From assembly GCF_030269925.1 (NCBI RefSeq), contig NC_085130.1:7638501-7702500 (forward strand): a DNA stretch of 64,000 nucleotides. Direction: 5' to 3'. The notes beneath the pieces were generated by a model, which searched no databases, was not told the DNA's origin, and worked only from the letters and a program-made list of their open reading frames with translations. This document shows positions 12,846 to 55,100 of this stretch, in pieces. Position 1 is the stretch's first letter; every line of letters begins with the position of its first letter. The DNA is from Bombyx mori. Lineage: Eukaryota; Arthropoda; Insecta; Lepidoptera; Bombycidae. A program made the translations under genes and the position numbers.

Positions 12846-14810
12846 CTATCTAGAACTCTGTCTTATAGAGGAGTCATCGTCCGCAAAACTGGGCCTATTT
12901 CTTCTGTCGCACCTCTTCTGATGCTGCCGTATAAACGCGCTCAGTCTGTTCAACAGAAACTGTTTATCGTGGCCTTCTAAGACCAGTTGGTTCTTAAGGA
13001 CCGCCACCATGTGCCTATTGGCTGTCGCGACGGCCCAGTAATAATACAAGAAGAATAATGTCACAGCGAAAGCCGGCACCGCGAACGTTGCAGTGCTTAA
13101 CAAGAATATGACCTCTCTAATAACCGACGGAAAGTTGTTGAATGTTTGTATGACGAATTCCCACACGGTGGTGTAGCCTCGATAAGGACCGCAGTTTATA
13201 GACGGCAAGATTTCCGCCACCGAATACGCTACCGGCAGAATCGATATGACGAAACCGAGCAATAGAACCGACATGAAGAGTGATTTCGATTTGGACGCCT
13301 TATACACGACCGGCGAGGGCGTACAGTTTACGAGGCAAGTGAACTTTTTTATATAGAATATCATGAAATAGAACATAGATCCTATAATGGGTAGAAAGGG
13401 ACAGAAGAACGAACCCATCCAAATTATGGTCTGCACGTAAACAATGTCCAATACGTGTTTAGGCAAATAGAATTCCTGTTCGCCGAACATCTTCAAGCAG
13501 CGGCTCCGCGTGTGACGAGCCATAAACGCCCTAGGCAAATTTATCAGGAACGTGGTCACGAATTGAACGGCGAAATCGGTCAAGATCAACTTGTAGAACT
13601 GCTGACCGACGTATGTCTCCCAGCATTCTAACTTCGTTGTATCCGTGTTATGCTTCGCGCACACGATGCCATTCGTCGATATATACAAATAGATTTGACT
13701 TAACAATACGCCTAACGAGGATAGCCTCAGTAACACAGTCCTTAGGAGCGTTATAATGATAACATGTGGCGGCATGTAGCCTTCGTATCTGATCATGTAA
13801 CTAAAAATCTCGGGTATGATAAGATTCAGTACGACAATGCAAATAAACGGCAAAAACTCCATTAGTACGTTCTCCAATTGATTGAAAGACATCGTAGTGT
13901 ACACTATCGGCATCGTCCTGGTTCGATTCTCGTTAGATCCTATGCTTTCGTTGAGTCTCTCCGTCGAGAAGTTGAAGGCTACGTATATTAGAAAACCGGA
14001 CGCTATGAGTATCACAAACACGATCAGGTTAATAAACAATCTTTTTAGGTGCATCAATATCTGACTCTCCCGGCTGCGTGACTGTTTCTCTTCTTTGAAT
14101 CTCTCCTCTTCGATGCAGCCCTTGATCTCATTGTACAGAGCTTGGTGTTTGATTCTCGCCGATCTGTCGTTGTGTATGCAAAAATCCCAACCGCCAAAAA
14201 CGAGGTTGCAGTACTTGTAGAACTGACCCTCGCTTTCGATTAGCTTCTGCTTGAAGCCCCTGGCGGCCGTCTTCACGATCGCGATCAGGGACAATAAAGT
14301 CCAAGAAATCGGCACCAAAATGTAAGCCATTGGCATATTGTAGAACAGTTTCGTATGGTATAAACTATTTACGTAGTACGTGTATATTTGATCTGTGTAA
14401 ACTCCGTAGAAGAGTATGGTTCTCTCCATCCAGCCAGTGCCCTGGATAACGTCTAAAAATATATTTGAATTCGTCGTGTTCTTCTCAAAATACGCTATAG
14501 AACAGCAAACTGTTGAATTCGCTTCCGTCTCGTCGCATTCGTAAACCCTCTCAGTCAACAATGTCTTTGGTAGGATCAGGAACACGATGACCAGTATCGA
14601 TATTGTGAAGTTTAACAGGAAGAGCCACCTCAAGAACAGGAAATAAGAGACGACTCCCGTTCCGAATTTTCCTTCTATTTCACGCATGGGGGTCTGCCAG
14701 AGCTCCAGCTTGCTAAACGTCTCAGTGCAGCCTATACGGAAACGGTGCCACACCTTCCTCTGCCTCCAGTGGAGTTGCTCGAAACCTTGGAGGCGAAGTT
14801 TCGTAGCGTT
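12846..14810 (-). CDS. Tmc: Tmc exon 3 (last)
   Basis: The acceptor is TCACTCGCAG, just before AACGCTACG. One uninterrupted exon of 654 codons plus stop TAG holds all predicted membrane segments and the TMC signature. It starts at residue 95. The charged tail ends SSIRQSSR. The open frame extends 15 nt upstream of the acceptor by chance. Confidence 0.92.
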   Translation of the reverse strand, partial: NATKLRLQGFEQLHWRQRKVWHRFRIGCTETFSKLELWQTPMREIEGKFGTGVVSYFLFLRWLFLLNFTISILVIVFLILPKTLLTERVYECDETEANSTVCCSIAYFEKNTTNSNIFLDVIQGTGWMERTILFYGVYTDQIYTYYVNSLYHTKLFYNMPMAYILVPISWTLLSLIAIVKTAARGFKQKLIESEGQFYKYCNLVFGGWDFCIHNDRSARIKHQALYNEIKGCIEEERFKEEKQSRSRESQILMHLKRLFINLIVFVILIASGFLIYVAFNFSTERLNESIGSNENRTRTMPIVYTTMSFNQLENVLMEFLPFICIVVLNLIIPEIFSYMIRYEGYMPPHVIIITLLRTVLLRLSSLGVLLSQIYLYISTNGIVCAKHNTDTTKLECWETYVGQQFYKLILTDFAVQFVTTFLINLPRAFMARHTRSRCLKMFGEQEFYLPKHVLDIVYVQTIIWMGSFFCPFLPIIGSMFYFMIFYIKKFTCLVNCTPSPVVYKASKSKSLFMSVLLLGFVISILPVAYSVAEILPSINCGPYRGYTTVWEFVIQTFNNFPSVIREVIFLLSTATFAVPAFAVTLFFLYYYWAVATANRHMVAVLKNQLVLEGHDKQFLLNRLSAFIRQHQKRCDRRNRPSFADDDSSIRQSSR

Positions 14811-17800
14811 CTGCGAGTGACACAAAAAGCTACTAAAGTGACCAGCAATCGAGACCCCGACATGTGCTTTTCATTCCAAAATGGCCTTTAGCTTTACTAA
14901 GTACCCTGCATTTCCAATCGGTTATCCGTTGGAACGATGCGCCCATATCGAGGGGTGATAGACTATTTAAATGTGCCGTTATATTTAGTATTAGCATCAA
15001 CAGTACGATGTTTTTAATTGGGTTTCAATTAAGTTTACTACATTGAAACAGCTAAAGAAGTTTTTTTGGTCATGACAGTTTTTTCTAAATTTCAAACGTT
15101 ATTTAGCTTCTTCTATAAGGTTGCAAAAATTTCGCTTAAACCAATAGCCTTTCTTTCACCCGTCGATATGAAAAACTTTACTCAATAAAATTCCATTGCA
15201 TCAAACAGCTATAGTTTTGGGTATCCAAAATCTTTTCATCTATTTTAATAAAATAATAGTGATTTGTATTAAAAGATCTAATTTGCTAAAACGGATCGTG
15301 CTTACAAAAGTCGAATTAAGGCAATTTCAAAAGCCTAAACGAATAGAAATTCTGAGAAATGTTAAAACTCCCCGTTTATATAGATTGATATGAAAAGATT
15401 TTGGATGTTAGCGACAATGTCAAATAAAAATATTAGTTGTTATTTAAATCTTTCTAATTGCCGAAATAGCTCTTCTACTTCTGTAACTAGTTTTTATTAT
15501 TAAGCTTTACTAGACTAGTTGCAAGTCGAATTTAATTATCGAAGTGACTAAAACGAAACTGACCTATTGTTATTATTTATTGTGTAGCTACTGGTGATAG
15601 GGGGTCCTGCGAAACCACGCGGCTCATCATGTCCATACGTTTCTTCTTGAGGAGTTTCACAACCATTACCCAATACAATTGACACTCTGACCTCACGTCT
15701 CAAGGCGGGTGACGGAATTTCCGTGGCGATGTCTATGGCTCCATTACCCATTTCACCAGTTGAACCGCCTGCTAGTTCTCACATCATCAGCGAGAGGGTA
15801 CATGCATCTAAGCCAGTGACACTTATTTACCTGCAATCGAGCTTTAAGCTCGATCTTCTGACTCATCGGGACAGGTAGCGCTTTTATCTGCATTATCTCC
15901 TCCCACGAGCGTTCTTCGTTCGATAGATTTTCTGTAAATATATTTTAATTTTGTTTTGTCGATTCTTAAGACATTTTACGTTTTCTTTTTTTTCTAATTC
16001 TGGGATTGGATTTCAAAATTTAATAAACGAACGAGCTTAGCTTTGCATGTATTGCTTTTGCAGTAAAAGTTAAATCCTGTAGATGTATATGTCTGTCTCT
16101 TTTTAGTGTCAACTTTTTGTTTCATCGATGCTAAAATCACAATGTTGTCAAAGAAGTCTTCACTTCAAGACACGATGATAATGAATCAAATGAAATGAGA
16201 CTTACCTACCCTCCCAAATTAGCCCTCAACCTAAAATGGTGTTAAAATGGGTTAACTGATTTCTCGAAACATACCTGATAAGTCTGGCAACATCGAGAGA
16301 TGTATGTCCCGGCTCTGCATGGTCCTAGCGAAGGTAGATTGGCGCCGATCAGTCTGGGATCTGGCGCGTTTGACCGTCGTCGCTGAAAAGCAATGCACGC
16401 CATTACGCATCAAACGCGAATTTTTTTTCTGATTTTTTATTTTTATTGTCTTTGTTGGCAGTGTGTAAGTGGTCACGGTCGCTCATAGACGTCAGCAATG
16501 CCAGGGGCAGAGCCAAGCCGCTGCCTACCATTAAGTACTCTCCGCAAACCTCGTTTGAAGAAGGACATGTCATAGCGCTCGGAAAACACCGTGGAGGGTA
16601 GTTCATTCCAAAGCCGGATGGTACGTGGCAAAAAAAATATCTTTGGTAACGTACTGTCGATGAATGCAGCAAAAAACATTACAATTATTCAAAGCTATTC
16701 AAACTTATTGGAAATTCTAGAGTGATCACATAGATACACACCGCCGAGAACAGAGAAAGATGACGAAGCATCATCCAGAGAAGCATAATGGGAGGAGACT
16801 CAGGGAGGAGGAGAGTGGTCTGGAAGTAGTATCATAAACCGAGAAGTTTCATCATCGCATCATCATGCGTATTGGTGATGAGAGGTGGATTTAATAACCC
16901 AGTCGTTTATCGCCCAGGAAAAGGTGCGCCTTATGCTATATAAAAGTACCCTCCCGAAATGCTTATCTTGGTGCCGTCTCTTCAGTTTTACTGCGGCTCC
17001 AATCGCATCAAAAATATCTTTGACCAGAATTCGATTAAGATCTACCAACCTATGACGCGTATTCATAGATTCCATGGAATTATACAATGAACATCCTAAT
17101 CTTAGTTTTAGTAAATATACCATTGAAATTTAATGGATACCGTGGTTCGTAAACATTGACAAGCCGCTGAGGATTCGTTACAAATCTAAAGCGTAAATTA
17201 TGTTTACTACTCGCGAAAACTTTAGCAAATACTATGGTTTGCTATATTCGTCCCTGGAAATATTCTGGATCCATCTTCTCTTCGAGAGGAGGTAAGGGCA
17301 ATGTCCTTATGCAATACGGTCTTTGAATTGAAATGGACCACGATCGATTAATATCCCTGATGTCCTTTCCCTGGGGTCTGTCTTCTTCAAGTCCGATATT
17401 AATTCTGCGTATACAGCGGATTGCTTCGCGCCACAAATTTAAATGGTGTTTCAATGTGTTGTGCCCACATCGGCATTATGATGTGTCAAATGATTTGATT
17501 GATACGACCAAACCATCTCGATTATTTCATAGATTAGTTAAATGTCGTAGCGTTTGGACAAAACCTTGAACTATTTATCCAAAAAGCTTGTCTAAATCGA
17601 CTTAAGATTGTGTGAAGCCTTTGGAATTTAATAAAAAAATCAAATGTTTTGGTTGAGGCAGAAAACAATTTTTTTTTATTGCTTAGATTGGTGGACCAGG
17701 TCACAGCCAACCTGGTGTTAAGTAGTCACTGGAGCCCATAGACATCCACATTGTAAATGCGCCACTCACCTTGAGATACACGTTCTAAGGTCTCAAGTAT

Positions 17801-28271: not shown

Positions 28272-31200
28272 TTATAATTTTAGGTTAAAACTGTTGAGGA
28301 ATAAGATAATAATTTTATAAATAACTGGGTCTACTGTATGTAATAAATAAGGTACAGATATAGGAAAAGGAATACTAAGTGATGATAAAGAACTATAAAG
28401 AAGTGAATGATCAAAAAGGGGACATGAAAGAATAATGTGATTTAAATCGCCAATGTCCGCACCGCACTCACACTTACTGCTATCCAGCACTCCGATCGTC
28501 GCTAGATGTGCCGGACTACACGTGTGGCCTAATCTCATCCGTATCAAACTGGAAGTCTCGTGGCGTTTAAAATTATATTTGTAGAACCATGGTTTGGAAG
28601 GAATGGTTGGTTGTACCCTTCGGTAATATTTTGCTTTAACGCCATTATACCACTGTGCACTCCAAGCATTATTCAAATATGTTTTAGGAAGGCTAACTAA
28701 ATCATGACTATAATTTTTGAAATAATAAATATCACCACAATTGATAGCCTCGTTTGCAATTCTATCAACTATTTCATTTCCTTTAATTCCGCAATGGCTA
28801 GGTATCCATACAAATGATACTGTAAGATTTTGATCCATACATTTCATTAACAGGTTTCTACAGTCTAAGAGAATAGGGTAAATCGGTTGAGATTTAAAAG
28901 GAAATTTTGCAAGAGCCTGTAAAGAACTCTTTGAATCGGTTAGTATTAAAGTTTTCTTTAGTTTGAATATCAAAATGTATTCTATGGCCTTGTATATTCC
29001 AAAACATTCACCAGTGAACACTGATGTTTCAGATGGTAATTTTATCTTTTCAACTATTTTTGATTGCGAATGGTAGACTCCTACACCAACACAACCTTGA
29101 GGGTGTTTGGAAGCATCTGTATATATATGGTTATAGTCATTCCAGTCTTGGTCTATTACAAAATTAAAGTTAGTATTTGGTTGGGGTTGATACTTAGAAA
29201 TACCCATGTCAAGATGAATATCCGGTTTTAAAATCAATGCCATATAGTTTACACAAAATAGAGGGAAAATATGAGAGTGATTAGTTGGAGTTTGAATAGA
29301 CAAATATTTTCTGTAGCTAATTATTAAACATGGTAACTGTTTATGTTTCCAAAATGAAGAGTATTCTATGAGTTCATTTAAAGTTTTAAGTTTGGTAATA
29401 ATGTGATTATTTTGAATTTGTAGGGATTTGAAAACGAATTTATCAGATAAATATTGACGTCTCAAATGAAGAGGAGGATCAACACATTCTACCTGTAATG
29501 CTGTAACAGGACTAGATTTCATGGCTCCAGTGATAATTCTGAGTGACTTAGACTGTATAGTGTCTAGTTTTTTGAAAGCATTCACATCCCCTGGTTGAAG
29601 TAAAAAAGTACCATAATCTAAAACTGATCTTACTATGGCATTATATAAAAGTTTTAAATTGAATGGGTGGGCACCCCACCATACACCGGCAAGAGAACGT
29701 AAGATATTCATATTACTCAAACACTTGTTTGTAATGTAATTACAATGTTGAATTCCATTCAATTTTGAATCTAAAATTAAACCTAAAAATTTAACATGAC
29801 TATTTACAGAAATTAATTCATTCTCATACAATATACTAATTGGAGGAAGAGAACGTTTTCTAGAGAATACAACAATAGAACTTTTGGAGGCAGAAAGGGA
29901 AAGTCCATTATTATCTAACCAAGATTTAAGAGTTAGAAATGAATTCCTAAGGGATAAGCAAGCTTTATGTATGTCTTTATTGCAAGTGTACATAAGGAGG
30001 TCATCAGCATATTGAAGAATTCTTACTTGATTTCCAAGGGTCTCTTCCAAATCACAAGTGTATATATTGTATAAAATTGGACTTAACACAGATCCTTGAG
30101 GAAGACCTCTCCATAAAGTTCTAGATTGTTGTGAATCTGAAGAGGTAGAGTTTAAAATGATAGTTCGATTTGACATTATAGTAATAATCAAGTTAGCAAG
30201 TCTAACAGGAACCCTTATTTTCTGTAATTTGTAAAGCAGTGTAGGAATATGTACATTATCATATGCAGCGGAAATATCCAGAAATCCAGCTACAATAGAT
30301 TCAGAGTTTGAGAAAGCTACCAAAATATCCACTATAAAGATAGCAAGATTGTCCATTGTGCTTTTACCCCTTCTAAATCCGTTTTGACTGTCACTGAGTA
30401 AACTGTTACTTTCCACAAACCATTCTAGTCTAATTTTAATTAAATGTTCTAAAATTTTCAACATTACAGATGAGAGAGCTATGGGTCTGTATGACAATAC
30501 ATCTGATGAAGATTTACCCGGTTTGAGAATGGGTAAAATAATTTGTTTTTTCCATGACTCTGGGATAACACATGTAATGAACATAGAATTTATAAGGTTG
30601 AGGTAATATGTGAGACTAGAATCACTCAAATGGACAAAGAAAGAATAAGGAATCTTATCATCACCTGGAGCAGAGTCCTTAAGATTCGAGATTACCCCCT
30701 TCAGTTCATTAAATGAAAAAGGTAAATCAAAATCTGAAACTGGATCTGAACATGAGAAAGGAAGGACAGACGGGATAAGAACTAAACATTCTTCTGGAAC
30801 ATAAGGGGGAGCTAATTTATCAAGAAACTTGTCAGCCAGATCATAAGGCAAGTCTTTGACTGTATTTTCTTTATATGCAGATCTAAATCTTCTTATTTGG
30901 TTCCATACTTCAGAAGGTGAGATATTAGGACAAATCGAAGCACAAAATTTTTTAAAACCTTCTCGTTTCTTTTTTAATAAAAGATTCCGAGTACTATTGA
31001 TTCTTTCTGTTAGAATATCAAAATTTTCTGTAATAGTTTCTTCTAAATATAATAATTCGGCTGCTTTTCTCTCCTTTACCGCCTGAGTGCACTCCCGGTC
31101 CCACCAAGGAGGAGAAGGAATAAAAATACCAGAAGGGCTTTTAGAAGGGAAAACTTCATCAGCTGTTTCTATAAAAGCAGAAGCTAAAATTTTTGCTTGT

Positions 31201-32006
31201 GCATCAGAATCTAAGTTATTAATATTTTCACAGTTGGCAAGTTTAATATCCAAACGCGATTGAAACGTTTTCCAATCCTCATCTGTTACTTGAGATAGGT
31301 TGTACTTTATTGTAGACTTATGTTTAGAATGATCCTTAATTACTATGTTATTGTGTGAAAATGAAATAATAATAGGATAGTGGTCACTTCCATAACTTAA
31401 TTTTAATGTTTTCCAGGACAAAGACGGCACCAGAGATGGGGAGGAAATAGATATATCAGGAGCACTAACAATTTGATCAGGACCAGTTCTACGAGTTGGA
31501 CTTCCAGAATTTAAAATACACAAATTCTGTTCATTAACAAAATCAAGAATTATATCTCCAAATTCATTAGATATTGAGCTTCCCCATGTTTGATGGTGAG
31601 CATTAAAATCACCCATTATTATGATTGGTCTAGGAAGATTCAAAATAATAGTTATAAACTCTTTGTAAATCTCTACAGAAGGGTGGGGAATATATACACT
31701 AACTATACATATATTATTTACAATGACCGCAATAATGGATAAACCAAAACTATGATCAGGTATATCTACAAGTTTAAAGCTAAGAACACTATTTACAAGA
31801 AGAGCAACACCACTGTACCCGTCAATACGATCTTCACGGATACAGGTATATCCTTTGATTTTGAAAGGATATATACTTTTCAACCATGTTTCCTGTAAAG
31901 AAACTATGATTGGAGAGTGTTTATTTATTAAGTGAATGAGATCAGACTTTTTACTTAGAATACTTCGACAGTTCCACTGAATCATCTTTTTTATTTGTGG
32001 AGCCAT
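28272..32006 (-). CDS. ORF2: endonuclease, reverse transcriptase and RNase H
   Basis: 1244 residues from ATG 32006. The AP-type endonuclease is at about 8-215 (IQWNCRS, LQETWL, MGDFNAHHQTWGS, YGSDHYPI). Reverse transcriptase is at about 440-740 (QNGFRRGKST 541, DISAAYD 577, GLPQGSVLSP 634, catalytic YADD 666-669). RNase H is at about 960-1085, with acidic residues near D964 (YTDAS), E1000, D1024 and D1081, and PSHCGIKGNEIVD. A Cys/His motif near the end (CECGADIGDLNHIILSC) is usual in the group. All catalytic residues are present. It overlaps ORF1 by 56 nt in another frame. Confidence 0.95.
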   Translation of the reverse strand: MAPQIKKMIQWNCRSILSKKSDLIHLINKHSPIIVSLQETWLKSIYPFKIKGYTCIREDRIDGYSGVALLVNSVLSFKLVDIPDHSFGLSIIAVIVNNICIVSVYIPHPSVEIYKEFITIILNLPRPIIIMGDFNAHHQTWGSSISNEFGDIILDFVNEQNLCILNSGSPTRRTGPDQIVSAPDISISSPSLVPSLSWKTLKLSYGSDHYPIIISFSHNNIVIKDHSKHKSTIKYNLSQVTDEDWKTFQSRLDIKLANCENINNLDSDAQAKILASAFIETADEVFPSKSPSGIFIPSPPWWDRECTQAVKERKAAELLYLEETITENFDILTERINSTRNLLLKKKREGFKKFCASICPNISPSEVWNQIRRFRSAYKENTVKDLPYDLADKFLDKLAPPYVPEECLVLIPSVLPFSCSDPVSDFDLPFSFNELKGVISNLKDSAPGDDKIPYSFFVHLSDSSLTYYLNLINSMFITCVIPESWKKQIILPILKPGKSSSDVLSYRPIALSSVMLKILEHLIKIRLEWFVESNSLLSDSQNGFRRGKSTMDNLAIFIVDILVAFSNSESIVAGFLDISAAYDNVHIPTLLYKLQKIRVPVRLANLIITIMSNRTIILNSTSSDSQQSRTLWRGLPQGSVLSPILYNIYTCDLEETLGNQVRILQYADDLLMYTCNKDIHKACLSLRNSFLTLKSWLDNNGLSLSASKSSIVVFSRKRSLPPISILYENELISVNSHVKFLGLILDSKLNGIQHCNYITNKCLSNMNILRSLAGVWWGAHPFNLKLLYNAIVRSVLDYGTFLLQPGDVNAFKKLDTIQSKSLRIITGAMKSSPVTALQVECVDPPLHLRRQYLSDKFVFKSLQIQNNHIITKLKTLNELIEYSSFWKHKQLPCLIISYRKYLSIQTPTNHSHIFPLFCVNYMALILKPDIHLDMGISKYQPQPNTNFNFVIDQDWNDYNHIYTDASKHPQGCVGVGVYHSQSKIVEKIKLPSETSVFTGECFGIYKAIEYILIFKLKKTLILTDSKSSLQALAKFPFKSQPIYPILLDCRNLLMKCMDQNLTVSFVWIPSHCGIKGNEIVDRIANEAINCGDIYYFKNYSHDLVSLPKTYLNNAWSAQWYNGVKAKYYRRVQPTIPSKPWFYKYNFKRHETSSLIRMRLGHTCSPAHLATIGVLDSSKCECGADIGDLNHIILSCPLFDHSLLYSSLSSLSIPFPISVPYLLHTVDPVIYKIIILFLNSFNLKL

Positions 32007-33558
32007 TGTATGTTTTGTTTAAAATTTGTCTTATGATATCAGCTGCGTTGGACGGTGTAGCGTTATTAGGAGCAAGTAAATTAATAAGAGCAATAATTAT
32101 TTCAGCCACAGGAGATTCGGAATTTTCATTAAATTTTAAAGCACAGCCATTAGAAGGAGATGGAGCATCGTAATCTCTTGTAAGATTTCTATGGGCCCTT
32201 TGATCAAAACCTTTATCACCTTTAAAGGGAGATCGAGGTTTCATAAAAACTGTTTTTTTATATGACGATGGACTTTTACTGGCAATTACTGGGCTGGGGG
32301 CAGTAGATTCATGAAACGTTGAATGATTCTTACGATCCGATGGAATTGAAGAAAGAACATCAGCATACGATTTATACACTGGAGGATGAAGTTTACATGC
32401 TTCCAAGTATGACACACAACTGTTCGCCATTGTCTGCTTTATGGCCCTTTGTCTTTCAAATTCTGGACATTTCTTATTTATAGCAAAGTGTAAGCCGTTA
32501 CAAAGACAACAGGAAACATTTTCCTCCTCTACATTACAAGAATCTCCTGTATGATCTTGACCACATTTAAAACAACGCGGTTTCGATCTACACTGAGCTC
32601 TAACATGACCGAATCTACAGCAATTAAAACATTGAACTGTAGGATAAATGTATAAATCAACTGGTAATGATGTAAAACACATATATACTCTTTTAGGTAA
32701 AACCTGTCCATCAAATGTTATTACCACGGATTCTGTGTCAATAAAAGTTTTATTATCATTTACAGTGATTTTTCTTCTTAATCTCCTAATTTTTAGGATT
32801 TTTCCGCAACCTAACGGAACACTGATATTATTAATTATTTCTTCTTCAGACCATTCTGTAGGAATATTTCTAACGATACCCATGCGAGTAACTTGAAAGG
32901 TAGGAATGAATGCTCTATATTTATTCTTCTCTAAAATATCTAAATCCATGAAATTGTTAGCCACATTAAAATTTTCAAATGTTAGTGATAGCCTGTTTCT
33001 ACCAATTCTCTTAAGACTACCATTAACAATATTTTTAATAGAATAATTTTTCAAAAATTTGCCAAAAGAAATTGGGTGCAAAATGGTATTGTCATTAGAT
33101 GCCTGTATTTGTTTTTGAATATGAATGACGTAAGGGGCAGCATCCGAGTCACAATATTTATGTCTTCCTATAAATCTAGGAGTGACATCATTACTTTCCA
33201 TTTGAGTCGGATGATTAGGAAATATATTAGTAGACACTGGATCATGAACAGAGCTATTAATCTTTAAGGCTTTATTAGGACCACTTTCCTCACATTGGCA
33301 CTGGCAGACGGTGTTGCCTTTCGAGTCACACTTGCTCCTTTTCCTATTGCAGTGTCTACAAATTCTGCGAGATGCACGTTTGCGATTTACAGATGTTTGA
33401 TGTCCGGAGTAATCGGTATCTACAGTAGAATCGTCATGCTCGACAACAACATTATGCGCCACTGCGGGCACTGACGATAAGTCACATTCGTCATTTACTT
33501 GTAAAATATTAAAACTATTAGAAGCAAGAGTCCCCCCGGGATCTCCCGGGGGGTCCAT
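31951..33558 (-). CDS. ORF1: nucleic-acid-binding protein with zinc knuckles
   Basis: 535 residues from ATG 33558 (an in-frame TTG lies upstream; the ATG gives MDPPGDPGG). Three CCHC-like knuckles lie at about 310-364 (CFNCCRFGHVRAQC, CFKCGQDHTGDSC, CCLCNGLHFAINKKC). A folded region at about 165-300 looks RRM-like. The N terminus has an extra Cys-rich cluster at about 67-89 (CRHCNRKRSKC, then CQCQC), which is unusual for ORF1. It should bind the element RNA. Confidence 0.88.
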   Translation of the reverse strand: MDPPGDPGGTLASNSFNILQVNDECDLSSVPAVAHNVVVEHDDSTVDTDYSGHQTSVNRKRASRRICRHCNRKRSKCDSKGNTVCQCQCEESGPNKALKINSSVHDPVSTNIFPNHPTQMESNDVTPRFIGRHKYCDSDAAPYVIHIQKQIQASNDNTILHPISFGKFLKNYSIKNIVNGSLKRIGRNRLSLTFENFNVANNFMDLDILEKNKYRAFIPTFQVTRMGIVRNIPTEWSEEEIINNISVPLGCGKILKIRRLRRKITVNDNKTFIDTESVVITFDGQVLPKRVYMCFTSLPVDLYIYPTVQCFNCCRFGHVRAQCRSKPRCFKCGQDHTGDSCNVEEENVSCCLCNGLHFAINKKCPEFERQRAIKQTMANSCVSYLEACKLHPPVYKSYADVLSSIPSDRKNHSTFHESTAPSPVIASKSPSSYKKTVFMKPRSPFKGDKGFDQRAHRNLTRDYDAPSPSNGCALKFNENSESPVAEIIIALINLLAPNNATPSNAADIIRQILNKTYNGSTNKKDDSVELSKYSK

Positions 33559-33768
33559 TTTACGAAACAAGGTCAAAAAGACTTACCCGACGACGAAATT
33601 AAATACACTAAATAAAGAAAAATTAAATATATAAAAAATATGTACAAACTTATCCTAATCCAACTATACGATAATTAAAAAATTTTTTAAATAAAAAACA
33701 CGACCGCCAAATTTTATGCTTCCCGCGCTTTTTTCGTACCTACATTTAGGTAGGTACCTCTCAAAACC

Positions 33769-40100: not shown

Positions 40101-43100
40101 TTATACGACTAGCGACCCGCCCTCGCTTCGCTTCGGAAACATTAAAACTCACAAAAACCAAAAAAATAAAATAAAAATAAAATAAAAAAAGTAGCCTATG
40201 TTCATCAGGGACAATGTCGGCTTCTAATGGAAAAAGAATTTTTCAAATCGGTCCAGTAGTTTCGGAGCCTATTCGAAACAAACAAACAAACAAATCTTTC
40301 CTCTTTATAATATTAGTATAGATTGTTGGAAGGAGTGGTTGTTTTTTTGGTAGAGGGTTTGTTACAAAAATAACCTCAAAATTGAATAAAAAGTCAAAGA
40401 ACAACAAAAATCCCACGAAATAAATGGATAATATTTATTTCTTTTGAAAGTACGATATTTCCATTCTCTTAAATAAAATTTATGCTATCATACAAAAAAA
40501 AATGCGCAACGGCGCGGGTCGATACTATGATTTTAGTGACTTAGGGACCAACTTTGTTTTTTAACAAATTTTTTTGTGGGGATGGATAGAGCTCGTTAAT
40601 CTCAATAATAATTGTTTTGGGCAAAAATTACAAAAACTTTATACTTTGGGCAGAAAAATGTGTTTTGTGATTTTTTTGTATGGAGCGGATCAAATTAAAT
40701 GAAATTCCTGCTAAGTACCGCGAGGTCCCGCTTTGAAACTTGATTTTTCTTAAACCTCGTCTAGTCTACTATCATTTGATGCTATCAGCATGTGCATAAA
40801 GTTGCAACTCTGCTAAATAAATGGATCGAAAAAAATGAAAAATACAAAGAATAAAAACCTTCATTTTTATTTTCGTAAGTGCTTTTAAGTTAAATTTGAT
40901 ATGAATTAGTAAGTAAAAGCACGTGCTAATACCCATAATTACATAATAACTAACAACAATACATTTAGTAGGTCTCTAATTAATCAATCTCTCGAGTTAT
41001 CCTTACATTAGTTGATGAGAACATAATTAGTTAATAATTATCATTAGCTCATTAACATTAGTTAATAATATGTAATTAGTTAATAATTATTCTCATTAAC
41101 ATTAGTTATTTAGTTAGTTAACATTAGTTAATGAGGAACGTTAAGGAGAATTGTAATGTTAAAAATTAGTAAACATTTGTTGGTCACTGGAAGTATAAAA
41201 TGACCATGTTTATATACCAAAATCAATGAATTTCAATATGTTTCTTTAATGACTTTAATTAGTTAATAAAAAGTTATTTACGTTAGTTCTGAATAGTAAT
41301 AACAGATAAATACTAATATAAATTAGTAAAGGTAAAATAACTCACTACTAACACAACTAAACTAAAAACTAATTATATACAACACCAATCTTTACTATTT
41401 CCTTACAATTATGACATAAAAAACGAATAAAAAAGTAACAAGAAACTTACAATCTACCAAAAATCTTATTCACTATCGCTATGACTATCTTGTAAATTAC
41501 CTACATCAATAAAATCTATATCGGATTCTGTGGGAAAATTCAGCAGAAGCTCTTTGACTTTTGGAGAGAGAGCCATTATATTTTGTTTCACCATTCGAGG
41601 TCTTAGACTTGTGATCTTTGGATCAGAAGACAAAAGAAGATTGTGTAAAATATCCTCATTAGTCGTCGTTCTACTTATCTTTCTAGAATGACTCTCTCTA
41701 TATTTCCGAAAATCTTTATTGCGAGCTTCCGCTGCCTCTTCCGACAGTTTACCTATAGGAATGGCACCAAAGTTCTTAATTATATCACTGCCATGTACCA
41801 ACAATTTATGGATACTGGAAGGCATATAATACCAGGAATATAAATTAATATACAATTCTGCAGTATCTCTACAAAATTCGGAAAATTTGGAAAGGTCTAC
41901 GTGTTCTCCAGATGCAACAGTCTGAAGAATCACGTGAAACCTCTCTATTAAATCTTTACTTATTCCTGTTATGCGAGCTGTTCCTTCTGCATCCCTGAAA
42001 AATCTTCTGGCGGTATTGCCATCATTGGTTGTTCCTACTCCTTGCTTGACAACATCTATAAGTAAGCCGGATTCCTTTTTAAACGCTTTCTGTATAGCGC
42101 TCTTTCTAATTGACATTTTTTCTTTGTCATCGCCCCTACAACTCCATTTTTTGAAGTCCAAACGATAAGCTGCAAAAAAAGAAATTTCATTGAAAAAATA
42201 CTCTCACAGGAAACTATATACGATGAAAAAATTGTGAAGTAATAACATTGTATTTACCGATATGAAGTAAGCACTCCATGCATCTTATCCAGGCATGTAA
42301 AGATGACATTCCATACTGGAATATTTCTTTATTCTTTTCTCTTTGAGCAAGTGATTCCAAATTGTTCATCTCTGACGGTTTTGCTTTGCAAATATCACAG
42401 GCAGCAGAAGATGTTTCTGACAAATATGACGTTTTTTTGCCGTCTATCATCGTCATGTGCAATTGATGCTTAACTTCAATTTGTTTAATTTTTGATGGCT
42501 GAAGTCTTTCTATTTCTTCTGTTATGCTAGCTTTTATAATTGCCACTGTTGACTGCGTTTCTTTTGTAAATTTAAACATTATGGGACGGCAGTAAAAAGT
42601 TGATGAGGGTCGGTCGTTTTCCCAAACAATTGTTCCATCACATTTTTGAAGCCTTATAGGAACTAGACTGGCCATGAAAACAGATGAATCATCAAACTCT
42701 ATTTCAGTCTTTTGCTTATAATTACTTTGACTTGAGGCTCCATCAAAGCCCCATTTGCTTATAAGCAGTAGCTCTCTTGCCGAGTCCAAATCCAAAGTAA
42801 TCACATCTAAAAGCCTAGATACCGTCAAGTTTAGTAATGCTTGCATTTTAATAGCAGCTCCTTCTTCCGTAATAATTATATCTTCTTTCCCTGGATAACA
42901 TTTTGTCTTTTCTTGCTTAATTTTATAATAAGAAGGGTATAAATCAGACCCATTTTCACTTGCTGCTTCTCTTAGGTTTATATACTGCCACTTACTTAAT
43001 TTAAGTGAAACTAATAAAGACAGTGCCTTATCGGGAGAATATGTACTACTTTTCGCTTTACTTGTACTTAAACACTCCTTAACCTTTTCTAGATCTTCGG

Positions 43101-46100
43101 GGTGATTTAACAAATGGTTCATTATTTCCCCTACATCTTCATTTCCAGTGTTTCTCAAACTAGCAATTGTTGTAGCTTTTATTTCATCTGGAGATGACGA
43201 AAGCGATTGGTAAATTTGTTCAACGCGTCTTCGTTTTTGCCTGGATCCCAATTCTTCAAAAGGTTTTCGAGGTGTAAAAGTAGATGTCGTGGCTTCTGTA
43301 GTAGATGTTGAGAATGGTATATTTTCAACATCTTCAGTATTAGGAATATCGAGCCTTTCCTGTGCAGTGTTGTCAGCTTCAGGTATCATTCCTTCAGGCC
43401 AGTTTATTGCACGTTCTAACCAATCACCATTTTTTCTTATAAAGTGTGCTAAAGTGCGACTACTTCGTTCCCATCTTGCACTTATATTTGAACAAAAGCG
43501 CGTACAGAATTTTTGGAGCTCAACACTTTTCTCTTCGGTCACGTTTATTTTATTTTGTAGGAATTGAAAAAGTTTTTTATTATCAGACAGCGACTGTAGT
43601 TGCTCTCTTAAAATCATAAATAAATCTAAATTGATAACAAAATTGTCCATTATAACGGAAAAGGAACTATAACAATCACGAGATGTTAGTAGTAGTACGA
43701 ATAAACGAACACTAGTTAATATATAATAAATATGGTCATTTTATACTTCCAATGACAAACAAATGTTTACTAATTTTTAACATTAACAATAGTTAATGAG
43801 GGTAGTTACCCAGTAATGGCTGCTTAACGAAATATCCTCATTAACTAATGTTAATGAGGAATGTTAAGGAGAATTATCCTCATTAACTAATGTTAACTAA
43901 CTAAATAACTAATGTTAATGAGGATAATTATTAACTAATTACATATTATTAACTAATGTTAATGAGCTAATGATAATTATTAACTAATTATGTTCTCATC
44001 AACTAATGTAAGGATAACTCGAGAGATTGATTAATTAGAGACCTACTAAATGTATTGTTGTTAGTTATTATGTAATTATGGGTATTAGCACGTGCTTTTA
44101 CTTACTAATTCATATCAAATTTAACTTAAAAGCACTTACGAAAATAAAAATGAAGGTTTTTATTCTTTGTATTTTTCATTTTTTTCGATCCATTTATTTA
44201 GCAGAGTTGCAACTTTATGCACATGCTGATAGCATCAAATGATAGTAGACTAGACGAGGTTTAAGAAAAATCAAGTTTCAAAGCGGGACCTCGCGGTACT
44301 TAGCAGGAATTTCATTTAATTTGATCCGCTCCATACAAAAAAATCACAAAACACATTTTTCTGCCCAAAGTATAAAGTTTTTGTAATTTTTGCCCAAAAC
44401 AATTATTATTGAGATTAACGAGCTCTATCCATCCCCACAAAAAAATTTGTTAAAAAACAAAGTTGGTCCCTAAGTCACTAAAATCATAGTATCGACCCAC
44501 TGTGCGGCGGCCCATAGAAGAATGGGCAATCTCCTTTCATTAATTATTCGTATAAAGTACAAATCTATACTAATATATAAATCTACAGTGGTTTTTACGG
44601 ATGATCCGTTATAACTACTGAACCGTGCATCCGATTGACTTGAAACTTGGTATCCATGTAGAAAATACATGTACTTAACGAATAGGCTAATATTTATATG
44701 AGTGTTGGACTGCCTAATAATAATGACAATAAATAATAATGTTAATTTTAAATGCGCAGCAAAGCGGGCGAGTACGACTAGTTTTAACTATGACTGCCAC
44801 TAAAATTACTTTTAATGTTTAATTTTGCGATTTTTCTTGTCGTTATAATTTTGTTTGGGATGTTTCGAATAGCTTACTGTTTTCAAATTGTTTACAGCTT
44901 ACGGACCACTATAAGGTCCTTGTCGACTCTTAATTTCGTCATTTTGCTAACTACCCTCTTATTTATAAATCTGTGAAATATTCAAAACGCCGTAAATAGG
45001 ATAGCGTAATTATAAGCTAAAACAACACAAACACAACGTAATATCGTAAAAGTAGTTTTGTGTTTACGTATCGTTGAAAATGAAGAAAATACTAGGAGTG
45101 AATTAACCCATAGACACAGCCCACTGAGTGATTAACGGCCGTCTGGTGTAGTGGTAAGTGACTACACAAAGGGGTCGCGGGTTCGAATCCCGCCAAGGGA
45201 AGATATTTGTATGATAAATATAAATGTCTTTTCCAGTGTTATGGATGTATATTAAATATATGTGTATAATAAAAACCTTACATTTATTTCCGTTATCTGG
45301 TACCTGTAACACAAGTTCTTTACGAACTTATCACGGGACCAGTTAACGTGGCGTGATTGTTAGTAATATTTATTTATTTATTATTTATTTATTATTTATT
45401 TATTATTTATTTATTATTTATTTATTATTTATTTATTATTTATTTATTATTTATTTATTATTTATTTATTATTATTTATTTATTATTTATTATTTACTAT
45501 TTATTATTTATTATTTATTATTTATTTATTTATTTTCTCTATAATAGGTATCTCACCTGAAAACAAAGAAACGACATTCAAAGTCCACTACCACTCTCAA
45601 TTCCTTATAAAAATAATTCAATTTAATTTAGTAACAATATGCCTGAGCATGGCAGATGTCAACCCTTCAATATCAACGCATGTCACCGTTATCGACAGCG
45701 CCATCTATATGATGACATGGAAGCTATAAAGCGCTTTACAAATATAAAATACTTTAAAGAAATATAGTTTCTTTACATATATGTCCCACGATATTGTTCC
45801 ATCAACAGTACGCAATTGGATAGCAGGTAGCAAAACAAACCAAAAACTTGTTTCTTGAATTAAAAGTATTGCGAACTACTCTTCTACCAAACAGTGTGCG
45901 TAGTGCGAGTTCTTTAACGTTCTCGATAGCGTAAAAGTTAACTCAGATTTGTATGGAGTTGGAACAGCGCCCCTAGCGGCAAACGTAGGGAAGTTGTTCC
46001 AACTTGCGATCGAGAAGTTAAAAAACTCGCTTTTTTTTCCTACCTAAGCTGATAGCCTTAGGGGCTATTTCAGCGTAACCCTAACGTTTGTAGCTGAGCT

Positions 46101-49100: not shown

Positions 49101-52100
49101 CGCGGGTAGGTTCCACCACCCTGCCTATTTCTGCCGTGAAGCAGTAATGCGTTTCGGTTTGAAGAGTGGGGTAGTCCTTGTAACTATACTGAGACCTTAG
49201 AACTTATATATCAAGGTGGGTGGCGCGTTTACGTTATATATGTCAATGGGCTCCAGTAACCACTTAACCAGGTGGGCTGTGAGCTCGTCCACACCTTTTT
49301 TTTTTTTTTTTTTTTTTTTTTTCTATTTTCTCTATTTATCTGCAATCGGCTCTATAGCCATAATCAGATGTGTTCCAAGAAGTTCGAGTTGTGGATGACA
49401 TTACATTAAATGTCATCAATTACAGCAGTAGATTTAGTATCTTTGGTCTAAGTCTAAAATTTGCCATCTTTTTAAACGTTTCCCATCTCCAGTTGTGTCT
49501 AGCAGGCACCTTGCCAATTCATTTGAGTGCTCATTTAGTCTTTCCTTATATCTCTTGCTGTTCTTGTTGACTTCCTCTCGAACAGTCGGCATTTCTAAAT
49601 ATTCGTGAATCTCACTATTTCTTACAAACCAATGCGCGTTTGAGATAGTTCTAAGAGCAATGTTCTGGAATCTCTGTAAGATCTCGATATTCGAGTTGCT
49701 AGCGGAACCCCACAGTTCTATTCCATAAGTCCAGACAGGTTTTATAATCGCTTTGTAGACCAGGAGTTTGTTACTTAGTGACAGTGGAGACCGGCGTCCC
49801 AGTAACCAATTCAAAGAGAGAAATTGCAAGTTCGCTTCTCGTTTTTTTGCTTTTATATGGTGTAATCCCAAGTATTTCACAGAGTCGGCATTTGGTAAAG
49901 CTTTACCTTCCATGTAAACAGGGACACAGACACCTTTCCGGAGGGTGAATGTTACCTGCGTTGACTTAGTTACACTAGGTTTTAATCGCCATCTCTGCAA
50001 CCAAGCATCTACTTTGTCAAGCTGTACTTGTAGTTGTAATGATGCATTATGTGGATCTATGTCACTTGCCAGACAAGCTGTATCGTCAGCGTAAGTCGCA
50101 GTTACAACATCTTGGGATTGAGGCAGGACCGGACCAAACACTGATCCCTGGGGTACGGAGGCGTTAATATTATACAGCTTCGAACAGTCCTCTCCAAATT
50201 TGACTTGGAATTTTCTGTGTTTTAAGTAGGATCTCAGGAGCATGAAAAAAGAATTCGGTAGGAGGGTTTTCAATTTATATAGTAATCCCTTATGCCAGAC
50301 TTTATCGAAAGCTTGCTTGATGTCAATAAATGCCGCAGAACAGTATTCCTTCTTTTCTAAGGATTGTCGAATTTTATGAACTACTCTGTGTACTTGTTCG
50401 ACTAGAAATACCGTTTCAAACACCTTAGACAACACAGGTAGAAGACTTATGGGCTTATATGAACTTGGATCTGACGCTGGTTTTCCAGGCTTTATAACCA
50501 TGCAGACTTGTGCTATTTTCCAGAGTTTTGGGTAATAATGTACTCTGAGGATAGCATTGAATAACATTGTTAGAAATATTATTACTTTTTTGGGCAATTT
50601 TTTAAGTACCTCACCAGTTATTAAATCAAAACCAGGAGCTTTTTTATTTTTAAGAGACTGTATACATTGCGTAAGTTCCCTGGGGGTGACGGATTTGAGT
50701 GGCAGGGATAGTTGCTGGTCACTATTAATCATGACATCAACTTCTTTTTCATAGTCCTCCATTGGTGATAGGTTAGGGGCAAATATTTCATACAAGTAAT
50801 TTGCAAATAGCTCAGCTTTTTCAGTTGTACTCTTGGCCCAAGGGTCGGTTGGCGATTTCCTCATTGGTGGAATATGGCTTTTAGGTTTTTTGAAGTTTTT
50901 GGTGATTTTCCATAAAGAATAATTGTCCTTCTTGTATGCTGAGAGCCCTGATATTTTATGATGAAATGCTGAGTTGACAGATTCATTGATTAGTTCTTTT
51001 AGTTCTCTTGAGATTTTATTAAATTCTTTTCTGTCTGTATCGGATCTTGTCATGTGGAGTTGCCTTCTTAGCTTTCTCTTTACTTGAAGTTTGTGGCGTA
51101 TTTCCATAGGTATATTATTACTAACAGTATGATCGCTTAATTTTGGAGTGGAATGCCACGCAGCCACTTGAATGAGGTTTGTGATATAAAATGTTGCCTC
51201 ATCTATATCTTCTTCTGTTTTAAGTTTAACACTAAGTTTAATTTCTTCCTCTAGATAATCGCTGAATGAGTTCCAGTCTGTTTTATAATTATATAGTACT
51301 TCTTTTTGTTCTTTTTGTATAGGTGAGATGCTAAATGTTGCTATGACAGGAGTGTGATCCGACACAGAATCAAGTGATGACTCAACTTCAAAATATACAT
51401 ATGAAAGACCCTTTATTATAAAAAAGTCCACCAGATCTGGAAGTCTATTTGTATCTGTTGGCCAGTAGGTAGGTTCACCTGTTCCAAGGATTGTTAGCTT
51501 GCAATCATCAGCACTTTTTTTCAGTTCACGTCCCTTAGTAGTTGTCAACCGTGATCCCCAGAATGTATTCTTGCAGTTCCAATCACCTCCGCTTATAAAT
51601 TTATTGCCCAAAGTGTTGAAGAATTTATTAAACATATCTTGCTTAGGATTGTGTTTTGGTGGACAGTAGATAGCACTGATGTTAATAGGCCCAAACTTTT
51701 CGTTTATAGTTATAGTAGTAGCTTGGAGCCATTCCTCTCGAAAAGCACTGTGTACATTATGCCTTATGTTATTTTTAATAAGAACGGCGGTTCCTCCATG
51801 TGAAGTTCCATCAGGATGATTTGTGTTATATACACTATAGTTATCTATCAAAATTGTTCTATTGTCATTAAGATGAGTTTCTGATATTAGCGCAACGTCT
51901 ATTTTATTAAGCTTGAGCAAAATTTCTAGCTCCTGTTTATTTGGCGCCAATCCATTTATATTCCAGGTAGCGATGCGCAACGAGAACATTATGGAGCTTT
52001 ACTCACGAGTGTAATGATAAGGTTCATCATTGTGTTTAGCTGTGTTATAAGTTGGTCAATTCTTTCAGATTGTCTTGTTATGACCTTTTCTAACATAAGT

Positions 52101-55100
52101 ATTTGCTCTCGAGTGTCATTGTCGCTATCTATTTTTTTTAATTGTGTTCTCTGTGACATATTGTCATGGTTGTATTTTGTCATAGGTTTTTGTGTTCTTG
52201 GCTGATGTCTATTTATGTATGTATTTGATCTCTGTGTTTCTGTACTGGTATCTAAAGGCCATGATGTCTGATGATCCTGCGTATCTTTTTTATATTTGAT
52301 TGGATCATAAGTATGATTCTTGAGAGATGAATTTTCAAGACCTTTTTTAACAACCTCACTGTATTGTTTTAAACTTTCTTGAACAGTAGCATGCTGTTTG
52401 GTGGTTTTTACTTTTCTTTCTTTTTCAGTTTCTATTTGGGTATCGTTATATACTGTTGGATCTTTTGTAGCAAGAGAGTTGATTTTATATTTCGTGTTAG
52501 GTTTATTAGCCATTTTCTTCCTTGTAAGAATTTCTTTGTATACCATACATCCTTTGTAACTAGCAGGATGACTTCCTGAGCAGAGAATGCACACAGCTGG
52601 GGTATTTTTGTCAATAGTGCACAATGTTGTCTTATGTGGACCAGCACATTTTACGCATCTATATGGGCGCATACAATAATTTTTGCTGTGCCCATATTGT
52701 TGACACCTTGTACACTGTACTATAGTTGTCTTTCGTTTCGGGTCTTCTATTTTTACTTTTTGGTGGTAAATGAATTTTATATCTTTGACATGTTTATTAT
52801 TTTCATGGGATGCTACATTGACAAAAAATGTATTTAATGGTTCTTTGGTGCCAGGTTTTCGTGCAGTGACGATCTCTCCTTGTACTTTGTTACCTGTCTT
52901 CTCTATTGCATCAATGATGGCATCTTTAGGTGTGCTAAAGTGTAGATGTTTGATTACTATCCGCATACATTTTTGATCCTTTCGTGTGAATGTATGGCCT
53001 ATTAGCCCTCTAGCTCTGATATGCTCTATAAGGATTTTATACTTGTCAATTGTGGCAGAGGATATGATGAGTTGGTCTTTAGATGATACTTTAAAGGTGT
53101 AGTCATTCTTTTCCAACACTTGTTCTATTAATTCTGTTAATTTGGCAAGGTCTTCAATACCATATAGTATAATGGGTGGCGGTTTGGGGGTCTTCTTTTG
53201 TAGAGCCGAGTCATCAGCTTCAACATCTAATATTGAGTAACGATTACTTGTTTCTATTTCTGGACTTTGTCTACTTGTAGATTCAGTAATATCTCTGTTT
53301 TGGCTGATCAGTTGGTTTCTTGTATGTAACCTTTTGGCTTCATTAGATTTAGAAAGCGAATTTTCCTCAGGAGAACGGTTCCTTTTTTGGTTTGGCATTC
53401 GTTTCCATGGGATATTTGGATTATGTAAATCAGTCACATTGTTTTCCTGCTCGTTTTTGTTGTTGTTTGTCATTGTGTTTTTTAATTAGTTCTCTGGCAT
53501 CACCCAGTGACGCGGATCGTTGGCGATTCAAAAGACCCGGGTGAAATAACTGTTGGGTCAAAGTTTTTGTTGGTTTTTCCACAGACAGCACTACTTTGCC
53601 CCCCCCAGAATACGCGGGGCAGCCTGAGCTAAGCTCAGGGACGGATTCTCCGGCATCGCCGGTACCCTCCTGGGGTAATTTCTCTTTAAGTCTTGCTTCC
53701 ATGTAGTTTAGTTTTTTTTTTTAAGGGTTAACTCCCCCAGCCAGCTTATTCGGTTATAGCGCCGAAGCCTCGCTTTCGGACTTCATATTTAGCTACTATG
53801 TTCCCGAGGTAAATGAAATGTGCGGAACTCGTACTGGAACATAGCATTTCCGGAGGGGACGACCCACAAAGATGTAGATATGTGGGCCCATCACCAATGA
53901 AATGTGATGGCGAGGACGTATATGAAGCACTTGTCGGTGCGCGCCTAATAGCCTGGTTCCACACACCCAGGCGTACGCAAGCAGATTAGCATTTTTTAGG
54001 TATGGGTTCACTGGCAGAACCCATCCCACTAATACTTATCACCGACTCCCCCCCCGTCCACCCATCTAAGCAATAAAAAATAAAAAAAGCAAATGTTCAA
54101 ACTGCATACAAATTTGAGTTAACTTTTACGCTATCGAGATCGTTAAAAAATTCGCACGAAGCACACAAAGCGTCTGCCTTCCCACCATTCTGTATGAATA
54201 ACTCACAGTATAGTAAGTAGGCTGCGTGCCCATTCGGTCCCAGCTGCGAATTAGATTCTCGATTACACGTGGGAGGTACTTACCTCGTATTCGTAAGCGA
54301 ATTTTCTATATTAAAACTGATGTAACAGCCGATCGCTTAAAATCGAAATTACTTTCTTTAAATAGCTTCTTATAATTCTGATTACTAGTGGTCCCGCAGT
54401 AGTCGAAATTCAACTATAATTAATTGGAATTGTAAGTTTGTACGCTATTATGATTGTATTTTATACTTCTATAATAGCAAATTTCGCCAAGACTACACTA
54501 TAAAAAATATCGACTACATAAGACAAACAATATTTAATCTCAATTTGACAACAGACGTCAAGAGCAAAAGTTTGACAATAAATAGTATGCATGCGTGTGT
54601 GCGTCAAATACATGGTATGTACCTAGTGTGTGTAATGTTTTCTTTATTGATTTAATGTATCTTTTATGCATTATTTAAAAAAAATATTAGCATTGTGCAC
54701 TTCTTCTCTATATTCTCTATAAGTGTGGAAAATTTCATACTCCTCCGTCAGCGCAATTTTCGTAAAAAGGGATACAAAGTTTTTGCTTCACGTATTAATA
54801 TATAGATATTAGCACGGATCGTTCATTTTGCGTGTAAAAGGAAAGTTTGTGTTTATATATTTTTTATTGTATTTAGGTCCGATGGACATGTCCAAAGATG
54901 CGCTTCTGAATTCCACTGCTGTTTCATAAAGACTAGATTAATGTTATACATGTTATCAATCTAATGAATTGGAAATATGATCGAATATAAAATTATGAAG
55001 AATAATCAATATGTATGCGCAATCATCACTACATAGTATAAAACAAAGTCGCTTTCTCTGTCCCTATATCCCTATGTATGCTTAAATCTTTAAAACTACG

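Follow-up and report, generated by a model that had tools for sequence, protein, structure and literature searches.

The window analysed here, a stretch of 64,000 nt from Bombyx mori (NC_085130.1), contains a Transib element that is inserted at CGGCG and carries an unbroken predicted two-exon transposase frame of 698 codons; five bases of its left CACAGTG heptamer are missing. We regard it as probable that this copy can no longer move in cis and that any activity of its transposase would be confined to defective relatives at other genomic sites, in trans. It is a known kind of element and was rightly recognised as such in the initial annotation of this DNA, but it is not intact.

Structure of the element and its insertion site

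The element and its parts are located as follows:

40510..40514, no strand: left target-site duplication CGGCG; a single CGGCG in paralogous empty sites
40515..44504, minus strand (that of the transposase): Transib element, recognised by flanking CGGCG, inverted arms and the match to HzTransib
40515..40521, plus strand: damaged left end, five CACAGTG bases missing by comparison with the ends of relatives
40516..41137, plus strand: left inverted arm, 622 nt
41138..41465, plus strand: 3' non-coding part
41466..42169, minus strand: exon 2, rest of codon 465 to residue 698 and stop (E612 at 41727-41729, H585/H590)
42170..42257, minus strand: predicted GT-AG intron, 88 nt
42258..43650, minus strand: exon 1, residues 1-464 and first base of codon 465 (D303 at 42742-42744, D403 at 42442-42444, C418/C421)
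43877..44498, minus strand: right inverted arm, 622 nt
44498..44504, minus strand: right signal heptamer CACAGTG
44505..44509, no strand: right target-site duplication CGGCG

Both features by which the insertion had originally been recognised, a 5-bp CGGCG duplication (40510-40514 and 44505-44509) and long inverted repeats (40516-41137 and 43877-44498), are present, and complementarity between the arms is 100%. CGGCG agrees with CGNCG, the 5-bp target duplication given for Transib in PMC4735498. The empty junction, i.e. the two flanks joined with a single CGGCG, occurs elsewhere in the genome three times exactly and four times with 1-3 mismatches, and the reversed control gave no match. Five of these loci were fetched and the alignment spans the junction in all five at 87-96% identity, at one locus (L069) across 93 bases only. 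Since copies of the empty junction have one CGGCG, the target is a repeat and CGGCG was duplicated upon entry of the element.

The insertion target (40322-40514 and 44510-44537) is itself a low-copy repeat: of seven places that closely resemble the empty junction, five were aligned. Searches of the genome with the flanks returned mostly abundant repeats. Seven copies of the short motif TTAACATTAGTTA or its reverse complement lie at 41052-41130 and 43842-43962, in the arms and the adjoining interior, and may be binding repeats. Elsewhere in the window, at 28275-33582 and 49437-53485 (both minus strand), there are two pairs of long overlapping frames that, judged by eye, resemble non-LTR retrotransposons in which neither ORF1 nor ORF2 appears to be interrupted.

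The transposase

Two frames joined by the predicted GT-AG intron (42257-42170) give 698 codons without a stop, which bears out the spliced frame of 698 residues proposed in the initial annotation. The intron is supported because two related proteins, P0004 and P0005, run into intron-like sequence at the splice point, whereas the sequences given for P0002 and P0006 have the splice at this position. The length of the window protein is usual, since 95-98% of the query is matched by five named lepidopteran proteins that are 678-708 residues long.

The best match of solved structure is PDB 6pqn, 'DNA-mediated transposase' (E 1.7e-167, residues 199-671, 260 of 472 aligned residues identical), which we take to be HzTransib of Helicoverpa zea. 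PMC6941560 also uses this name and gives the HzTransib catalytic residues as D126, D225 and E436. These numbers exceed by 17 in each case the chain positions (109, 208 and 419) with which D303, D403 and E612 of the window protein align. All seven residues named earlier (D303, D403, E612, C418, C421, H585 and H590) are in place and have identical counterparts in the HzTransib alignment, so that the assignment to Transib and to RAG1-like DDE transposases is supported. Going by residue numbers, the protein has about 177 residues ahead of the HzTransib-like part. Vertebrate RAG1 matches the protein weakly (E 3.8e-6), and the Pfam RAG1 profile scores 22.5 bits, under the cut-off of 25.

Loss of the left signal heptamer

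The right end of the element reads CACAGTG followed by GGTCGATAC, and the left end reads a single C followed by GGGTCGATAC. When the two ends are compared, CGGCG-C-GGGTCG on the left stands against CGCCG-CACAGTG-GGTCG on the right (reverse complement). A search of the plus strand between 40365 and 40594 found CAC only once, as CACGAAA at 40414, 101 bases outside the end, and none in 40415-40594. The heptamer expected of Transib termini is thus present at the right end and absent from the left.

For comparison we fetched 59 relatives, a sample of the copies in the genome, made up of 39 other places from the element search and 20 paired ends. Complete copies number 52, and seven have no second end in the fetched stretch. 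All 51 aligned relatives carry five extra bases at the left-end gap of the window copy. CACAGTG is present at both ends in 52 of 52 complete relatives, a count in which the pattern defining 'complete' included the heptamer. For this reason the count was redone with a heptamer-free end pattern: CACAGTG was found in 111 of 111 ends of the 59 relatives and was absent from the left end of the window copy. It is important to note that 20 of the 59 had been found by a heptamer-containing pattern; for the other 39 the count is 71 of 71 ends. The missing left heptamer is therefore damage to one copy and not the mark of a different family.

These results change two statements of the initial annotation. 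The element had been called apparently intact, which does not hold for a left heptamer lacking five bases that every scored end of its relatives has. It had also been suggested to be an autonomous, recently active copy. An autonomous transposon needs two functional ends and an intact transposase; here the frame is intact and the left end is damaged. The suggestion is unsupported, as loss of the left signal heptamer should stop self-excision. From its sequence, we would not expect the window copy to move in cis.

The loss probably followed insertion, because the target duplication still abuts the element and a broken end could hardly have inserted. One-ended cleavage followed by end-joining would be a plausible cause. 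By analogy with HzTransib and RAG, the transposase would nick and hairpin DNA at CACAGTG borders, and with its left CAC gone the window copy would not excise itself.

Defective relatives in the genome

There are 182 termini in the genome with at most three mismatches from the 36-base end (reversed control 0), and 70 exact ones are listed, including the right end of the window copy. The outermost 36 bases of this right end are thus identical to 69 other genomic ends, and any protein made could cut those. Perfect 5-bp target duplications flank 47 of the 52 complete relatives; they are mostly CG-rich and not all of the CGNCG form. With one exception the relatives are 90-93% identical to the window copy. 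The exception, L056, has an unrelated interior (62% to the window copy) and was left out of the lesion counts.

Nearly all alignable relatives share a set of lesions that destroy the transposase. Two adjoining deletions, of 313 nt (49 of 51 relatives) and 261 nt (51 of 51), lie around 40994-41576; between them they take away the last codons, the 3' part and the inner portion of the left arm. Of the 51 alignable relatives, 50 have lost 5 nt at 42362-42366 and 48 have lost 1 nt at 42749. Codon 241 is a stop in 47 of the 48 relatives that cover it, and codon 300 in 48 of 48. At the same time the nearest neighbour is at least 97% identical for 47 of the 52 complete relatives. Near-identical copies with common older lesions likely spread after the damage, on enzyme made elsewhere, and this suggestion from the lesions and identities is independent of the window copy. 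Many diverged copies sharing old damage had been named in advance as an observation that would speak against the initial annotation: this describes the 51 alignable other copies, which are 7-10% diverged, but not the window copy, which is free of those lesions. Two pairs of relatives on contig C29 (L031/L032 and L059/L060) are 99.9% identical and are possibly segmental duplications rather than new insertions.

Among the matches listed for the window protein (best 64 of 365 candidates scored) and for a Manduca Transib protein (best 63 of 401), only the window copy is stop-free in both exons. The Manduca query, by which a second Transib family was sought, gave listed matches belonging to the same family when positions were judged by eye, the best of them being the window copy. 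The genome searches scored the best 40-64 candidates per query. A second copy of 41214-41577 was not found among the best 40 of 82 candidates, nor a long arm match above 93% identity among the best 40 of 191.

Two roles were considered for the window copy and rejected. It is not the parent of the fetched relatives, the nearest of which is 92.65% identical, and the comparison of lesions with the relatives excludes it as a carrier of the old damage of the family. Our comparison would make it at best a sister of the lineage that supplied the enzyme.

Possible selection on the transposase frame

Differences between the window copy and its relatives show an excess at third codon positions (ratios 1.24-1.45) in all of the four comparisons but that with L033 (1.03), and ratios among the relatives themselves are 0.90-1.02. 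These ratios come from 7, 8 and 5 copies of three subgroups plus L033, chosen by hand. The dN/dS values are 0.52-0.83 in five pairs of window copy and relative and 0.64-1.21 in five pairs of relatives. We also asked with which side outside proteins agree at the 60 sites where the residue differs between the window copy and most relatives. The three nearest, P0002, P0004 and P0005, side with the window copy 27:13, 26:9 and 27:9 (p 0.04, 0.006 and 0.004); for the more distant P0003, P0006 and P0056 the tendency has the same direction but is not significant (p 0.16, 0.10 and 0.68). Taken together, these comparisons lend modest support to past constraint on the window lineage.

Alternative explanations

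The copy may be no more than a relic: a silenced element that makes no transposase and represents the family's last coding lineage, with a frame that is open only through the short time since insertion. The completely identical arms fit such a young, or a recently homogenised, copy. Arm mismatches number 2-19 over 403-480 compared positions in 49 of 52 other copies and 25-123 in the remaining three, against 0 of 474 in the window copy. Arm identity as an insertion date was rejected, because arms of a DNA transposon need not start identical. It also fits a relic that the protein search in which the neighbouring TMC7 host exon has a counterpart at 100% identity has none for the transposase above 89% (among 90% clusters, with representatives shown). 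However, open frame and catalytic residues have been kept since a split of 7-10%, and, judged against the three nearest outgroups, the amino-acid changes tend to lie in the relatives. We give the relic reading a little less than an even chance; it shares cis-immobility with the preferred explanation, and the probabilities of the two overlap. Continued autonomy of the window copy, with a left gap that is an assembly error or is tolerated by the enzyme, is unlikely, even though the gap is read from one assembly, in which it might be a sequencing error, and all other parts of the element are complete. The missing bases include CAC, the first three bases of Transib and RAG-like ends, which PMC7204232 describes as invariant and critical for function, and the full heptamer is kept in every scored end of the relatives.

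A further possibility concerns the origin of the copy and is compatible with the preferred explanation of a cis-immobile element: a recent horizontal arrival from a noctuid-like donor moth into a genome in which older defective copies already abounded, with the left end lost after landing. The transposase is 89.4% identical to P0002 of Spodoptera exigua over 540 positions and 71.5% identical to P0056, the nearest protein of Manduca sexta, over 386 positions. The host TMC7-like exon of the window has the reverse order, 75% to Spodoptera exigua and 77% to Manduca, which belongs with Bombyx to the Bombycoidea, while Spodoptera does not. In the tree the window transposase joins P0002, P0004 and P0005 (support 97/89) and Manduca falls outside. 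In addition, no relative in the genome exceeds about 93% over a long stretch among the candidates scored. The reversal of identities is consistent with horizontal transfer, but it is a comparison at the protein level with a single host gene as control. Old paralogous lineages combined with loss could produce the same pattern. Moreover, in 8 copies of the relatives most segments resemble the window protein more closely than P0002, which fits a history shared with the relatives. Horizontal arrival is thus a serious candidate that falls slightly short of being probable. A scan of viral contigs with exon 1 found no relative. The host exon itself (12849-14870, minus strand) is a large exon of a gene for transmembrane channel-like protein 7; P0122 is 100% identical to it and the top named matches are from Lepidoptera.

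Significance

The element bears on how a mobile RAG-like transposon turns into a recombinase that is fixed in place and works on signals at other sites. It is conceivable, though quite improbable, that the window has caught a RAG1-like transposase at the first step of the road presumed for RAG1. The gene would be pinned by loss of one end, with about 180 CACAGTG ends as cuttable targets, so that a captive recombinase and its signals would exist as separate parts. If the protein is not made, this is an ordinary late-stage transposon family. A coding Transib without one signal, among dozens of non-coding elements with full signals in an easily bred moth, allows direct tests of immobilisation, of trans-mobilisation and of a possible horizontal arrival.

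Comparison with known systems

CACAGTG is the consensus RSS heptamer of RAG, and the window element resembles vertebrate RAG1 and RAGL transposons in this heptamer and in the order of the DDE residues. It differs from them in a weak sequence match and in the absence of a RAG2-sized frame: in the list of open reading frames no frame inside the element exceeds 92 aa apart from the two exons, and none has the size of the convergent RAG2-like gene expected of RAGL. The lack of such a frame agrees with membership in Transib. BmTEdb lists three Transib entries in silkworm, and the defective relatives are likely among them. The Spodoptera exigua protein HF086_001529 (P0002), compared as protein only, is 89% identical over 540 residues. 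Compared with HzTransib of Helicoverpa zea, again by protein, the window copy is longer by about 177 N-terminal residues, contains a predicted intron and lacks the heptamer at one end, but the two share the RAG1-like DDE core (55% identity over 472 residues) with the same catalytic and zinc residues.
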